Part shown: positions 5,956 to 22,529 of the stretch, in pieces | How positions within the stretch are numbered: the first letter of the stretch is position 1 | How the letters are laid out: the number at the start of each line of letters is the position of its first letter | Assembly (NCBI GenBank): GCA_902629075.1 | Contig: CACOPK010000003.1 | Coordinates: forward strand, 1 to 64,000 | Origin: an uncultured Pelagibacteraceae bacterium | Lineage (GTDB): Bacteria > Pseudomonadota > Alphaproteobacteria > Pelagibacterales > Pelagibacteraceae | DNA: 64,000 bases | Reading direction: 5' to 3' | The notes under the pieces: generated by a model | Told to the model about the DNA's origin: nothing | What the model saw: only the letters and a program-made list of their open reading frames with translations | The model's database searches: none | Program-made: the position numbers and the translations under genes

Positions 5956-7110
5956 ATGTTAAAAGATATTAAAATTAAAAATATAGATATCAGATTATTA
6001 AGAAAAATTCTTTCTAAGAAAGGATTTTTATTGTCAAAAAAATCTATAGTAAAAAAAAATTCAAGCCTTCAAAACTTATACAAAATTAGTCTCTTCTCTT
6101 TATTTATAATTTCATTTTTTTATTTACTGCCACCCTCAGCTAAATATATTAGTGAAACATTTAAGCCAAGCTTAGAGATAGAGAATTCTTCAAATCAAAA
6201 ACTTACACAGGTTTTAGAAGGAAAAAATATTGACGATATAATCAACGATGAAAAAAATAATTTTACTGATCAAGATTTAGTTTATCAAGAGCTATATGGG
6301 GAAGTTACAGAAGAAGATTCTTTAGAGACTGGTGTGAGATTAAAAGCATCAGTATTATATCAACTTTTTGAAGATACAAACTATAAATTAAGTGACGTAA
6401 GAATAAACAAAATTGCGAAACCAGTTGAAATAGGAAAATTACCTTATGAGTTAAAACAAATTCAGAACACAAAAAAAAGAAAAGAATTATTTATTCAAAT
6501 TGTTTTACCATTAATTCTTGAGGAAAATAATAAGATTCTTCTAGATAGAAAAAAACTTTTTGCAATTCTTAATAAAAATAACAATTCCAATTCTGACAAT
6601 GAGTGGTTAAAAAAGAAATTCAAACAATATGGTGTTGCAAATAAAGATTTACCAACCTTAAAGAGAAGAATGGATATTATCCCTCCTTCCATGGCTATCG
6701 CACAAGCAGCAAAAGAGACAGGATGGGGAACTTCAAGGTTTGCACTTGAAGGAAACGCACTTTTTGGACAGTGGACTTATACAGATAAAGGAATAAAGCC
6801 TGCGGCTGCTGAAGCAGGCACAACACATAAGGTAATGATGTTCAATGTTTTAAAATCATCAGTAAGAGCCTATACCAGAAATTTAAATACTCATAAGTCT
6901 TACCGAAAAATGAGATACATCAGAGCAATACAGAGAGATAACTTTGGCAAATTAAACAGTTTAGAGTTGGTTAATCATCTAGATCAATATGCCGAAACAG
7001 GAAAAAAATATATCATTGTGTTAAAACAAATTATTGAGCAAAATAAATTAGTAGATTTTGATGATGTAAAAATTCTTCCGAATAGTGAAGCTGTAAAGAA
7101 TTTAATCTAA
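5956..7110 (+). CDS. Bax-like membrane-anchored glucosaminidase-domain protein
   Basis: A 384-residue protein with a basic N-terminus, one transmembrane segment at about residues 48-65 (ISLFSLFIISFFYLLPP) and a C-terminal glucosaminidase domain (about 240-360). The domain has the conserved PPSMAIAQAAKETGWGTSRF and GNALFGQW patterns; the Glu in AAKETGWG is the expected catalytic acid. The family (E. coli Bax, Pfam glucosaminidase) is expected to cut peptidoglycan glycan strands, and the topology places the domain in the periplasm. The last 4 bp overlap the end of the convergent deacetylase gene. The biological role is not settled in this family, so no cell-division function is claimed. Confidence 0.85.
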   Translation: MLKDIKIKNIDIRLLRKILSKKGFLLSKKSIVKKNSSLQNLYKISLFSLFIISFFYLLPPSAKYISETFKPSLEIENSSNQKLTQVLEGKNIDDIINDEKNNFTDQDLVYQELYGEVTEEDSLETGVRLKASVLYQLFEDTNYKLSDVRINKIAKPVEIGKLPYELKQIQNTKKRKELFIQIVLPLILEENNKILLDRKKLFAILNKNNNSNSDNEWLKKKFKQYGVANKDLPTLKRRMDIIPPSMAIAQAAKETGWGTSRFALEGNALFGQWTYTDKGIKPAAAEAGTTHKVMMFNVLKSSVRAYTRNLNTHKSYRKMRYIRAIQRDNFGKLNSLELVNHLDQYAETGKKYIIVLKQIIEQNKLVDFDDVKILPNSEAVKNLI

Positions 7111-18920: not shown

Positions 18921-20993
18921 ATGTTTAAAGTAGTAAAAAAAGAAATAGAAGTAGCAGGAAAAAAAATAAGTTTAGAAACAGGAAAAGTAGCTAGACAGGC
19001 TGATGGTGCAATAATTGCGCAGTGTGGAGAAACAGTTGTATTGGCAACAGCTGTAGGAGCAAAAAAAGTAAATCCAGATATTGATTATTTTCCTTTGTCA
19101 GTAAATTATCAAGAAAAATATTATGCAGCGGGAAAAATACCTGGAGGATATTTTAAAAGAGAGGCAAGACCAACTGAAAGCGAAACACTCATCTCAAGAT
19201 TAATTGATAGACCTATCAGGCCTTTATTTCCAGATGAATTTAAAAATGAAGTACAAGTACTCCCAACTGTAATCTCTTATGATAAAGAAAATGAAGCAGA
19301 TATATTATCTATAATAGCTTCATCAGCAGCATTAGCAATCTCAGGAATGCCTTTTTTAGGGCCTGTTGGAGCCTCGAGAGTTGGTTTTATAGATGGGAAG
19401 TATGTTTTAAATCCATCTAAAGCAGAGCTTAAAAATTCAAAGTTAGATTTAGTAGTTGCTGGAACTAAAGACGCAGTTTTAATGGTAGAGTCAGAAGCAA
19501 ATGGTTTAACTGAAGAAGAAATGTTAAATGCGGTGAAATTTGGTCACGAAGGATTCGTTCCTGTGATCAAAATGATAGAAGACTTAGCAAAAGAATCTAG
19601 AAAACCTGATTGGATTGTTGAGAAAAAAGATCTTTCTGAAGTAAAGAAAAAATTAGAATCTGAGTTTACAGCAGAATTGAAAAAAGCTTTTTCGACAAGA
19701 GATAAACAAGAAAGATCAAATATGATCTCAGAAATAACTGATAAAGCTAAAAAACTTTATGAGGAAAATGAAGAAATAACTGATTTAGATGTTAATTCAG
19801 AATTAAAAAATTTAGAAAAAGCAATTGTAAGAACCGATATTCTTAAAAACAAAAATCGTATAGATGGAAGAGGACTTTCAGATGTTAGACCAATAATGTG
19901 TGAAGTTGGAATTTTGCCAAGAGTTCACGGCTCAGCGTTGTTTACAAGAGGAGAAACCCAAGCAATTGTAACAACTACTCTTGGAACTTCAGATGATGAA
20001 CAAAAAATTGAAAGTTTAGATGGTTTGCAAAAAGAAAGATTTATGCTTCATTACAATTTTCCACCATTTTCAGTTGGTGAGACTGGAAGAATTGGAACTG
20101 GCAGAAGAGAAATTGGACATGGAAAACTTGCTTGGAGAGCAATAAATTCATCTTTGCCACCAAAAGAAACTTTTCCTTATACATTTAGAATAGTTTCAGA
20201 AATTACAGAATCTAATGGTTCATCTTCAATGGCAACTGTTTGTGGTACTTCATTAGCATTAATGGATGCGGGCGTACCAATTAAGGAACCAGTTGCAGGT
20301 ATAGCGATGGGTTTGATTAAAGAAGGTGATGATTTCAGTGTTTTATCAGATATCCTTGGAGATGAAGATCATTTAGGCGATATGGACTTTAAAGTTGCTG
20401 GAACTAAAGATGGAATAACATCTCTTCAAATGGATATTAAAATAACAGGTATTACATTTGAAATTATGGAACAGGCATTAAATCAAGCTAAGGATGGAAG
20501 AATTCATATTTTAGGTGAAATGAACAAAGCTCTTGCTAAGTCAAGAGATGACGTTGGAAAGCATACTCCAAAAATGGAAAAAATATCAGTAGATAAAAAA
20601 GATATTGCAACTGTTATAGGAAAAGGAGGAGCAACAATAAGAGAAATTGTTGAACTTTCTGGAGCTAAGGTTGATATTAATGATGAAGGAGTAGTGACCG
20701 TTGCTGCACCCGATGAAGAAGCTAGAAATAAAGCAATGCAAATGATTAAAGATTTAACTGCAAAACCAGAAATGAACAAAATTTATAATGGAAAAGTAAT
20801 GAAAATTATGGAGTTTGGAGCATTTGTAAATTTCCTAGGAAAGCAAGACGGGCTTGTTCACATTTCTGAACTCGCAGATAAAAGAGTGGCCAAGGTAACA
20901 GATGTTGTTAAAGAAGGCGACGAGGTAAAAGTAAAAGTTATTGGGTTTGACAGAGGAAAAGTAAAATTATCTATTAAACAAGCAGCAATATAA
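18921..20993 (+). CDS. pnp: Polyribonucleotide nucleotidyltransferase (PNPase)
   Basis: A 690-residue phosphorolytic 3'-to-5' exoribonuclease. Two RNase PH domains are present ([20 protein letters not shown] in the first; [17 protein letters not shown] and [16 protein letters not shown] in the second). An all-alpha linker lies between them. A KH domain ([22 protein letters not shown]) and an S1 domain ([28 protein letters not shown]) form the C-terminus. It starts immediately after the rpsO stop. Six bases after its stop lies the first of two conserved-loop hairpins, which probably terminates this long operon. Confidence 0.98.
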
Positions 20994-20998
20994 TATTT

Positions 20999-21028
20999 AG
21001 GGGCACCTGGCAACAGAACGCCCCTTTT
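20999..21028 (+). terminator. Conserved-loop hairpin, copy 1 (terminator-like), after pnp
   Basis: AGGGGC (20999-21004) pairs with GCCCCT (21020-21025) around the 15-nt loop ACCTGGCAACAGAAC and runs into TTTT. The position after pnp fits an intrinsic terminator. The loop is unusually long, and 13 of its 15 bases recur in a second hairpin about 600 bp away, so it may be more than a terminator. Confidence 0.75.
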
Positions 21029-21090
21029 CAATGTAAGGATTAATAATCTAAAATTCTTGATAATTATATTTAATTTTATTAGGATTAATC

Positions 21091-21456
21091 ATGAAAAAAT
21101 TAATTTTAATATTATCAAGTATAATTTTAACTTCTTGTGCAACTATAGTAAATGATGCAAATGTTCCTGTATCATTGTCATTCTCTGATGGGAGTTCAGG
21201 TAATTGTCAACTTACAAATAAAAGAGTTTCTTTAAGTGTAAGTGTACCATCAACGACCATGGTTAGAAGATCAGATGATGCTCTAAGATTTAATTGTACT
21301 ACAGATACTGGAAAAAAAGGATTCGGAAGTATACCAAGTGAAATAGAGTCAGGTAAACTTGCAGGTAGTGTTGTATTTTTTGATTTGGGTATTACCGACT
21401 CAATCACTGATAAACACAGAACTTATCCTTCTAGTTTTGTAATACCGGTTAATTAA
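21091..21456 (+). CDS. Small predicted lipoprotein, function unknown
   Basis: A 121-residue protein with a classic lipoprotein signal: basic MKK, hydrophobic LILILSSIIL and lipobox LTSC (lipidated Cys at residue 16). The mature part is Ser-rich and starts CATIVNDANVPVSLSFSDG, with two further Cys (near 36 and 69) that could form a disulfide; I see no catalytic motif. The start TSCATIVND resembles short proteobacterial lipoproteins of unknown role. It lies alone between two conserved-loop hairpins and is followed by an 18-residue hydrophobic ORF. Confidence 0.75.
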   Translation: MKKLILILSSIILTSCATIVNDANVPVSLSFSDGSSGNCQLTNKRVSLSVSVPSTTMVRRSDDALRFNCTTDTGKKGFGSIPSEIESGKLAGSVVFFDLGITDSITDKHRTYPSSFVIPVN

Positions 21457-21525
21457 ATTAGATAATTAGTTATCTGGCATTCAAAGTTTAATTACTATAT
21501 AAAGTGACTTGGGGAAGGAGTCTTT

Positions 21526-21582
21526 ATGAGCGGACTAGAAATTTTAGCTGTATTGGCAATTGCATATTTCTTAATTAATTAA
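21526..21582 (+). CDS. Putative 18-residue hydrophobic micropeptide
   Basis: The ORF reads MSGLEILAVLAIAYFLIN, essentially one short membrane-spanning helix. It is preceded 5 nt upstream by a very strong Shine-Dalgarno sequence (GGGGAAGGAG, 21511-21520), better than those of most confirmed genes in this window. It is followed 20 nt after the stop by the second conserved-loop hairpin. No family is recognised. The strong translation signal is the main argument that it is real; it could also be a leader peptide. Confidence 0.5.
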   Translation: MSGLEILAVLAIAYFLIN

Positions 21583-21602
21583 TCTAATTATTTAGGGGGT
21601 TT

Positions 21603-21627
21603 GGGGCACCAAGCAACAGAACGCCCC
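21603..21627 (+). repeat. Conserved-loop hairpin, copy 2
   Basis: GGGGC (21603-21607) pairs with GCCCC (21623-21627) around the loop ACCAAGCAACAGAAC, which differs from copy 1 at only two positions. It is followed by a pyrimidine-rich tract with T5. It sits just after the micropeptide ORF, and its last base is the first base of the stop codon region of a small minus-strand ORF. Confidence 0.7.
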
Positions 21628-21737
21628 TACTTTTTCCTTTTTTCTCTCTTTAATTTCCTTTTTTCCTTTAAAGAAAGTTTAGCTTTTTTCATTACACTAG
21701 AATCCTTAAAAGATTTACCACTATATCTTTTAGACAT
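21627..21737 (-). CDS. Putative 36-residue basic protein at the end of the fab operon
   Basis: The minus-strand ORF starts at 21737, 3 bp after the fabI stop, and encodes 36 residues beginning MSKRYSGKSFKDSSVMKKAK and continuing with an almost purely Lys/Arg/Glu/Leu helix. No family is recognised. It is tightly coupled to fabI but has no clear ribosome-binding site. Composition favours a nucleic-acid-associated small protein, but the A-rich DNA alone also produces Lys-rich frames. Its stop codon touches the second conserved-loop hairpin. Confidence 0.45.
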   Translation of the reverse strand: MSKRYSGKSFKDSSVMKKAKLSLKEKRKLKREKRKK

Positions 21738-21740
21738 TAT

Positions 21741-22529
21741 TTAAGTAATGTTTTTGGGATCTGGCATTCCTACTTTATTATATCCAGCATCCACATAGTG
21801 AATTTCACCTGTAACACCACCTGCAAGATCACTTAATAAGTATAGAGCAGAATTTCCAACATCATTTATATCTACGTTTCTTTTTAAGAAGGAATGATCT
21901 TCATTCCATTTATATAAGAATTTTGCATCTCCAATCGCCGATGCTGCTAATGTTTTAATTGGTCCCGCACTTATTGCATTTACTCTAATTTCTTTTGCAC
22001 CTAAATCTCTTGCAAGATATTTGACACTTGCTTCCAAGGCAGATTTACAAACTCCCATAACATTATAGTTTGGTATAGCTTTTGTTGACTCATATGTTAG
22101 CGTAATCATGCTTCCATTAGGTTTCATTATTTTAGCTGCCTCTCTTGCAACCTCAGTAAACGAAAAGCATGAAATTAGCATACTTCTTAAAAAGTTTTCT
22201 CTAGTTGTATTTAGATATTCACCTGAAAGTTCAGATTTATCGGAAAATGCAATTGCATGGACGACAAAGTCAATATTACCCCAACTTAATTTAATATCTT
22301 CAAATAATTTAATAACATCTTCTTTCTTTTCAACGTCGCAGCTGAATGTAGTTTTTGAATTTAGTTTTTCCGCTAATGGAACAACTCTTTTTTTTAAAGC
22401 GTCTCCCAAATAAGTAAATGCAAGTTCGGCTCCTGCTTCTGAAAGTTTTTGAGAAATTCCCCAAGCAATAGATCTTTCATTTGCTACCCCCATGATTAGA
22501 CCTTTTTTACCTTTCATCAAGCTCATCAT
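21741..22529 (-). CDS. fabI: Enoyl-[acyl-carrier-protein] reductase (NADH), FabI
   Basis: A 262-residue short-chain dehydrogenase-type enoyl reductase that completes each fatty acid elongation round. The cofactor site has the FabI-specific GVANERSIAWGISQKL. The catalytic Tyr-x6-Lys is in PNYNVMGVCKSALE, and ISAGPIKTLAASAI follows. The gene directly follows fabB with no gap between stop and start. Placement with fabA and fabB is the typical alphaproteobacterial unsaturated fatty acid cluster. Confidence 0.96.
   Translation of the reverse strand: MMSLMKGKKGLIMGVANERSIAWGISQKLSEAGAELAFTYLGDALKKRVVPLAEKLNSKTTFSCDVEKKEDVIKLFEDIKLSWGNIDFVVHAIAFSDKSELSGEYLNTTRENFLRSMLISCFSFTEVAREAAKIMKPNGSMITLTYESTKAIPNYNVMGVCKSALEASVKYLARDLGAKEIRVNAISAGPIKTLAASAIGDAKFLYKWNEDHSFLKRNVDINDVGNSALYLLSDLAGGVTGEIHYVDAGYNKVGMPDPKNIT

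Follow-up and report, generated by a model that had tools for sequence, protein, structure and literature searches.

Copies of the tmRNA gene end as probable attachment sites of a small gene cassette in SAR11

SAR11 bacteria are among the most abundant cell groups in the ocean; they have small genomes and few known mobile elements. In the genome studied here, two hairpins with the same GGGGC/GCCCC stem and similar 15-nt loops bracket a small patch of accessory genes between pnp and a convergent fabI-like gene. Why is a long loop kept at both ends of such a patch, and what do the two hairpins bound? Below, "the window" is the whole stretch of 64,000 nucleotides that was analysed (features in Table 1), and "the core" is the hairpin sequence.

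The window hairpins and the end of ssrA

The coordinates given for the two hairpins in an earlier note proved correct within a few bases. The core is 25 bp long with a stem of 5 bp. Both copies contain the 10-mer GCAACAGAAC, which has only two occurrences in the window; in shuffled windows its mean count is 0.07, and two copies appear in 0/100 shuffles. The earlier note had also said that one shared run precedes both hairpins. This run, ATTTAGGGG, does stand before each of them; its GGGG, however, already forms the stem arm of copy 1, whereas copy 2 has the run separately at 21590-21599 (ATTTAGGGGG), with TTT and the stem following it. In isolation, the folding energy is -13.9 kcal/mol for copy 1 (z -2.15) and -16.2 kcal/mol for copy 2 (z -1.51, in a different register). 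By itself, the RNA fold of the window copies is only mildly unusual. The letters after the stem are TTTTC in copy 1 and TACTTTTTCC in copy 2. A consensus terminator scan of the window lists neither hairpin, but it admits loops of at most 8 nt and so passes over loops of 15 nt. Elsewhere in the genome, a hairpin with a GGGGC/GCCCC stem (L001, G000:C1:31560-31581) has an unrelated loop and is perhaps an ordinary terminator. Downstream of fabI and on the same strand (minus) lies a very basic frame of 36 amino acids (MSKRYSGKSFKDSSVMKKAKLSLKEKRKLKREKRKK; 21627-21737), the stop codon of which overlaps the final base of core copy 2.

Table 1. Positions of the hairpins, the putative cassette and the flanking genes in the window
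Feature	Position	Strand	Basis or remark
pnp, upstream flank of the predicted insertion junction	18921..20993	+	ORF list; Pfam
Core copy 1, GGGGC-ACCTGGCAACAGAAC-GCCCC	21000-21024	+	GGGGC/GCCCC stem; window sequence
Core copy 1 as ssrA (tmRNA) 3'-end fragment, putative first cassette boundary	21000..21024	+	6 nt past the pnp stop codon
Putative cassette between the two cores	21025..21602	+	603-bp unit bracketed, pnp to convergent fabI-like gene
121-aa cargo protein gene	21091..21456	+	ORF
Possible 18-aa hydrophobic peptide, MSGLEILAVLAIAYFLIN	21526..21582	+	directly before core copy 2
Core copy 2 with extra upstream GGGGGTTT (ssrA has similar)	21595..21627	+	putative second cassette boundary; alpha_tmRNA partial match
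Core copy 2 stem-loop, GGGGC-ACCAAGCAACAGAAC-GCCCC	21603-21627	+	window sequence
fabI-like enoyl-ACP reductase gene, convergent downstream flank	21741..22529	-	ORF list; Pfam

Where does the loop come from? A third copy in the window's genome is the 3' end of ssrA, the gene of a permuted two-piece tmRNA (tag ANESYALAA), and its 25 nt are identical to copy 1. Against the alpha_tmRNA model (Rfam RF01849) the copy on C8 of this genome scores 223.5 bits, above the gathering score of 50. The Rfam consensus ends in the same loop as the hairpins; the earlier note had recognised no described RNA family with this loop, and alpha_tmRNA is one. The window copies give partial matches below the gathering score (copy 1: 16.5 bits, E 0.0085; copy 2: 33.7 bits, E 5e-8). 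Both match only the last part of the model, with the 3'-terminal segment GGCACCUGGCAACAGAA present, and the extra upstream run of copy 2 aligns with the tmRNA segment CGGGGTTTGGGGC. Because the match is to the end of the model only, the window copies are, judged by their letters, copies of the last ~25-33 nt of ssrA, that is, fragments and no tmRNA genes. At the ssrA locus of the window's genome the core is followed directly by tRNA-Leu, which is the empty form of the locus.

Arrays, junctions and shared segments

How widely is the core spread? The earlier note had called for a search for further copies, and pattern searches found many in SAR11 genomes; we used patterns and Rfam's own model in place of a covariance model built from two copies. 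When 3 mismatches are allowed, 164/197 genomes of the family contain the core, as do 75/77 of the more complete ones, and a reversed-pattern control in the same family genomes gave 0 among the matches listed. With up to 2 mismatches it is present in 57/59 genomes of the genus. Of 289 genomes from the whole class, 144 contain an exact match to the 15-mer loop motif; in the 285 class genomes outside the family it occurs at most twice, with two copies in 6. The class-wide search also showed one genome outside the family (G318) with two identical CACCGGGCAACAGAA copies on different contigs, and a similar system elsewhere is possible.

In relatives, further core copies lie downstream of the ssrA end as arrays, in which the DNA is split into short segments with small genes. 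The counted segments between cores are 149-4,339 bp long; segments above 6 kb (in L040 and L041) are excluded from the cassette counts. In 86 fetched stretches with 167 cores, more than one core is found in 40, and mixed strands in 0 of these 40; since the stretches were picked by pattern match to the core, many of them because they hold several, the frequency of arrays is no random estimate. These counts take up to 5 mismatches (152 cores, 85 stretches and 38 multi-core stretches with up to 3) and are made without L077, which is the same place as L170. Outside this set, and unlike the counted arrays, L024 (G126:C17) has two degenerate cores (2 and 4 mismatches; 676-690 and 1040-1063) on opposite strands about 370 bp apart. 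Relatives (e.g., L036-L046, L296, L300) have islands with ssrA on one side and, on the other, a direct repeat of the ssrA 3' end. The window differs from them in that both boundaries are repeats and the locus is pnp|fabI.

A few gene junctions recur among the other positions of the core (the pnp, fabI, rnhA, redoxin and thyX genes were named by Pfam). A core stands at the pnp|fabI junction in eight genomes, two of which belong to another genus. Behind rnhA it is found in 14 genomes, 0-4 nt past the rnhA stop codon in 13 of them and with a redoxin gene within the next three genes in 10. At pnp loci of the same genus, 7/30 have a core (up to 5 mismatches) downstream; the gap from pnp to fabI, measurable in 24/34 stretches, ranges from -4 to 1,732 bp.

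Segments that end at the core are found again at different loci and across genera. We used thyX as the background comparison. One segment lies at ssrA in G033, of genus g2, and behind rnhA in G188, of genus g1; the two copies are 93.4% identical over 381 bp (thyX: 73.9%). A segment at ssrA in G190 matches one behind rnhA in G083 at 85.8% across 1,512 bp and at 87.0% in the final 353 bp (thyX: 77.8%), and a segment at ssrA in G170 matches one at a different locus of G137 at 90.5% across 549 bp (thyX: 83.8%). Two ssrA arrays share a segment that is in second place in one and in first place in the other (94.8% over 1,868 bp; thyX: 84.1%). A counter-example is one pair of cassettes with 82.0% identity, lower than the 96.9% between the genomes that carry them.

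What does the window cassette itself carry? From its signal-like start and LxxC motif, read by eye, our reading of the 121-amino-acid cargo is that of a putative lipoprotein; it has no Pfam family above cut-off. Relatives are found in 7/397 genomes, its own included. In G516 (genus g4), a relative with 79% amino acid identity lies directly behind the last of eight cores in an ssrA array, and by reading, a short hydrophobic frame like the 18-amino-acid one of the window precedes that last core. The DNA identity of these two cargo genes is 77.5%, only slightly higher than that of thyX (72.5%), and thus makes no case for recent transfer of the window unit. In G127, a 69% relative lies between rnhA and a redoxin gene without a core, and in G164 a distant relative (26%) adjoins a core at pnp|fabI.

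Arm-like repeats and integrases

Do the cassette ends hold further binding sites? We searched 69 cassettes of 350 bp to 6 kb for 7-bp direct repeats with at least 6 matches and a spacing of 11. Such repeats are found in at least one end of 42/69 cassettes and in both ends of 24/69, compared with 3.4 and 0 in shuffles that preserve base composition only; among random genomic windows, a broader rule finds repeats in 88/1740. Under a stricter 8-bp rule, a spacing of 11 occurs in 57/138 ends and any other spacing from 9 to 40 in at most 10 ends. By offset, the repeats fall into two groups separated by roughly one helical turn: 44-47 or 55-60 past the core, and -77 to -81 or -89 to -91 ahead of it, with one at -58. 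The arm motifs vary from cassette to cassette; within the 18 cassettes that have repeats in both ends by the 8-bp rule, the motifs of the two ends agree in 6.94 of 8 positions versus 4.40 when permuted (0/2000). We take this arrangement to be the layout of arm-type integrase sites. An SD-like motif follows the left repeats, as it does before the integrase gene, in only 5/29. The ends of the window cassette contain no 11-bp-spaced arm repeats that we could find, and the same is true of 26 of the other 68 cassettes. The window cassette may have lost its arms, may use another enzyme or may have arrived together with its neighbours.

No integrase gene was seen in any of the cassettes examined by reading, so these cassettes would depend on an integrase in trans. 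Among genomes, two records have an integrase gene adjacent to ssrA. In G511 (L284/L299), 94 nt separate the ssrA core from the start of the gene of an arm-type tyrosine integrase, and an 11-bp repeat lies in this gap. In AG-333-N19, L300 contains a complete element that spans 4,525 bp between its two cores and has repeats at either end; its order is ssrA core, TGGCGTCA twice, integrase (330 amino acids; 6001-6993), further genes, matching repeats, second core and tRNA-Leu. The element has PHROG matches to an integrase and to a primase (E 3e-7); Pfam and PHROGs recognise no further family in it and no capsid gene. A search of a large protein set scored 515 proteins as relatives of the ssrA integrase; among the 120 listed, identity is 55-93% and the source is mostly ENA or JGI. 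Elements with integrases of the ssrA type may thus be common, although the genome records are only two.

An 11-bp-type repeat lies upstream of 6/7 arm-type integrase genes in SAR11 (0.44 in shuffles), where "arm-type" is a class set by a sequence rule and no domain model; L181, L284 and L288 fell outside the rule, and four proteins of ~463 amino acids (L231, L232, L234, L236) were left unclassed by it. Four of the seven adjoin a tRNA gene (ARAGORN), and beside others a partial tRNA was identified by eye. The arm-type integrases of L055, L177 and L237, beside tRNA-Met, tRNA-Arg and tRNA-Ser, have 11-bp-spaced repeats before the gene and are likely to belong to prophages or satellites. A second integrase in G056 belongs to an insertion at tRNA-Met and was rejected.

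Is there a viral counterpart of the site? A search of IMG/VR for attP found the longer core in 10 stretches and GCAACAGAACGCCCC in 50, with 9 common to both. By reading, eight low-GC stretches are the 3' ends of phage tmRNA genes. In the low-GC viral contigs L065, L066, L068 and L070-L074, the 3' part of a permuted tmRNA gene reads as complete and contains this same loop. A further 42 stretches, found only with the shorter pattern or GC-rich, seem unrelated; the exception is L069, an apparent tmRNA end. By the repeat rule applied, none of the IMG/VR stretches has repeats on both sides, as a phage attP would. Phage-borne copies could be a means by which the core spreads. A blastn search of the hairpin against phages led nowhere, and neither did searches of viral contigs with the integrase of L177 or with the ssrA integrase as a single query. 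An alignment query found 112 relatives of the ssrA integrase in viral contigs, the best 80 of the 112 at no more than 35% identity, and in annotated phages the best relatives are near 32%.

A probable attachment site, rival readings and known systems

Does the core act as DNA or as RNA? At 55 ssrA ends the stem pairs are intact in 275/275 cases. In 112 copies elsewhere, 410/560 pairs are intact and 150/560 broken; 25 pairs are changed but kept, 5 of them through two-sided changes, and just 34/112 copies keep all five pairs. Mismatches cluster in three places: the left arm, T8-G9 of the loop and the right arm's first two bases. CAACAGAAC, the right part of the loop, is nearly invariant (14 mismatches across the 112 copies). 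At least 5 T are found within 8 nt after the stem in 28/112. Since the stem is often broken outside ssrA, the core there looks like a DNA site. We agree with the earlier note that loop conservation does not fit plain terminators, and there are many more loop-bearing copies in SAR11. It had offered a bound protein, RNA pairing or a pseudoknot as explanations; a bound protein is likely, but the broken pairs give no support to a structured RNA outside ssrA.

The core outside ssrA might instead be a compact bidirectional terminator between convergent genes, gene-converted from ssrA, with the accessory genes arriving by unrelated routes. Many non-ssrA cores do lie a few nt past a stop codon and beside a convergent gene, and both window copies have the GGGGC/GCCCC stem. 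We nevertheless think this quite unlikely, given that recurring segments end at the core, to which the arm repeats keep a fixed distance, and given the stem-pair and T-run counts of the non-ssrA copies, which speak against a plain terminator family. The core could still have a terminator role alongside its presumed role as an attachment site. A structured RNA or RNA-protein element that spread as a regulator at the RNA level would account for the high identity of the loop and the many copies in SAR11, but the loop is already part of alpha_tmRNA, the copies delimit shared DNA segments, and there is little covariation outside ssrA; with five two-sided changes against 150 breaks, we rejected structured RNA, and the regulator is very improbable.

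A further rival concerns the enzyme. A resident Cre/Xer-like recombinase could move the cassettes in the fashion of an integron integrase, the 11-bp repeats serving accessory proteins or expression. Exactly one tyrosine recombinase is found in 22/28 genomes of the genus and in 11/14 others, which favours this view; so does the absence of serine resolvase and Y1 transposase from 14 genomes. The two resident recombinases scanned are Xer/Cre-like; the resident type scores far below the XerC/XerD cut-offs and resembles XerA and Cre in the PDB. By sequence, however, the resident recombinases lack an arm-like N-terminal stretch, and the 11-bp repeat is found upstream of 0/59 resident genes (a spacing-12 repeat in 6/59), while the integrases with an arm stretch and the repeat include one at ssrA. 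We therefore hold movement by the resident recombinase to be unlikely. Serine-recombinase islands of the DsiB/DsiA type were rejected (PF00239 in 0/14 SAR11 genomes, 10/14 control genomes), and so was a REP/RAYT or IS200-like hairpin element (Y1 transposase PF01797 in 0/14; controls 5/14). In L058 (1135-2088; G000:C2), the sole tyrosine recombinase stands, by reading, beside glycosyltransferase-like genes and an apparent 23S rRNA end; it is far below the XerC/XerD cut-offs.

The match of the core to the ssrA end, arrays, shared boundaries, sharing across loci and genera, paired arms and an integrase at ssrA together lead us to read the core as an attachment site. We consider it highly probable that the window hairpins, as copies of the ssrA end, are attachment sites that bound a small cassette, with insertion predicted to proceed by site-specific recombination. 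An integrase would bind the core and the arms, recombine within the core and insert a circle, and ssrA would remain whole because the incoming element brings the same 3' end. Cassettes that lack an integrase gene would be moved in trans by the integrases of ssrA-type elements, with junctions such as pnp|fabI as secondary targets. Conservation of the loop would have two causes: at ssrA it is fixed by tmRNA function, and elsewhere recombination needs it or copies it anew. We also lean, with less assurance, toward a broader reading: an integron-like exchange in SAR11 without an integron, in which small cassettes that share one tmRNA-end core but have phage-type arm sites of many specificities would cross genera, moved in trans by integrases that belong to tiny satellites targeting tmRNA, and would occupy ssrA and a small number of fixed secondary ports (such as pnp|fabI and the junction behind rnhA). 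Insertion by tmRNA-targeting integrases may explain the swapping of single genes in these very abundant bacteria, and a shared, searchable core at named loci would offer a concrete and testable mechanism for single-gene gain and loss in SAR11.

Among the open-licence PMC papers that literature searches listed, none describes this system for SAR11 in its title or the beginning of its abstract. The word "tmRNA" is absent from the available main text of three SAR11 genome papers (PMC2217521, PMC7318151, PMC7542561). Further related papers, each available to us in part, are PMC11915505, PMC3478194, PMC2704228, PMC9004378, PMC12416821 and PMC11476347.

How does the predicted system compare with known ones? 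As in lambda-like arm-site elements, repeats lie on both sides of the core in 24/69 SAR11 cassettes and in L300, whereas the window cassette has none; in SAR11 an integrase gene of the element's own, as in lambda-like elements, is found only in L284/L299 (G511) and L300. The L300 element, with its integrase and primase-like gene and no recognised capsid gene, is possibly akin to small marine phage satellites (PICMI, in the available part of PMC10803314) and tycheposons (as cited in that of PMC10872708). SAR11 units differ from the phage satellites in PMC10803314, so far as its available text describes them, in being mostly small cassettes without an integrase, and a helper phage or packaging is not known for them.

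Closer in layout are the ssrA islands of Dehalococcoides, which, in the available part of PMC3146451, lie in tandem downstream of ssrA, as in SAR11, and have directly repeated copies of the 3' end of ssrA as their boundaries. There, 15/31 islands have no integration module, and the SAR11 cassettes are likewise mostly without one. The Dehalococcoides system as given in that text has a 20-bp repeat, a one-piece tmRNA and the serine recombinase DsiB. In SAR11 the repeat comes from the end of a permuted tmRNA, and the integrases are tyrosine enzymes associated with 11-bp arm repeats; most cassettes hold a single gene, and there are additional junctions, pnp|fabI for example. Ca. Methylopumilus is, like SAR11, a streamlined aquatic bacterium with islands preceded by repeated ends of an RNA gene; its additive flexible genomic island has repeats of the last 20 nt of tRNA-Lys and islands of 330 bp to 42 kb (available part of PMC10872708). 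It differs in using a tRNA for the tmRNA, and the same part of the text notes no arm sites, integrase pairing or secondary junctions. As described in these parts of the two papers, neither the Dehalococcoides nor the Ca. Methylopumilus islands combine all the features seen in SAR11.

Integrons are the remaining comparison. The available part of a 2007 study reports no attC sites in SAR11 variable regions (PMC2217521). Integron integrase models of NCBIfam are far below cut-off for the three recombinases that the scan covered, those of G000 and G040 (resident) and of G168 (prophage-type). Like integrons, the SAR11 arrays consist of small, mostly promoterless-looking gene units with a repeated putative recombination site in a single orientation. 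They differ from integrons in having no integron integrase by the NCBIfam cut-off among these three, in having arms outside the core, in a site that is the end of an RNA gene and in genes that lie on either strand.
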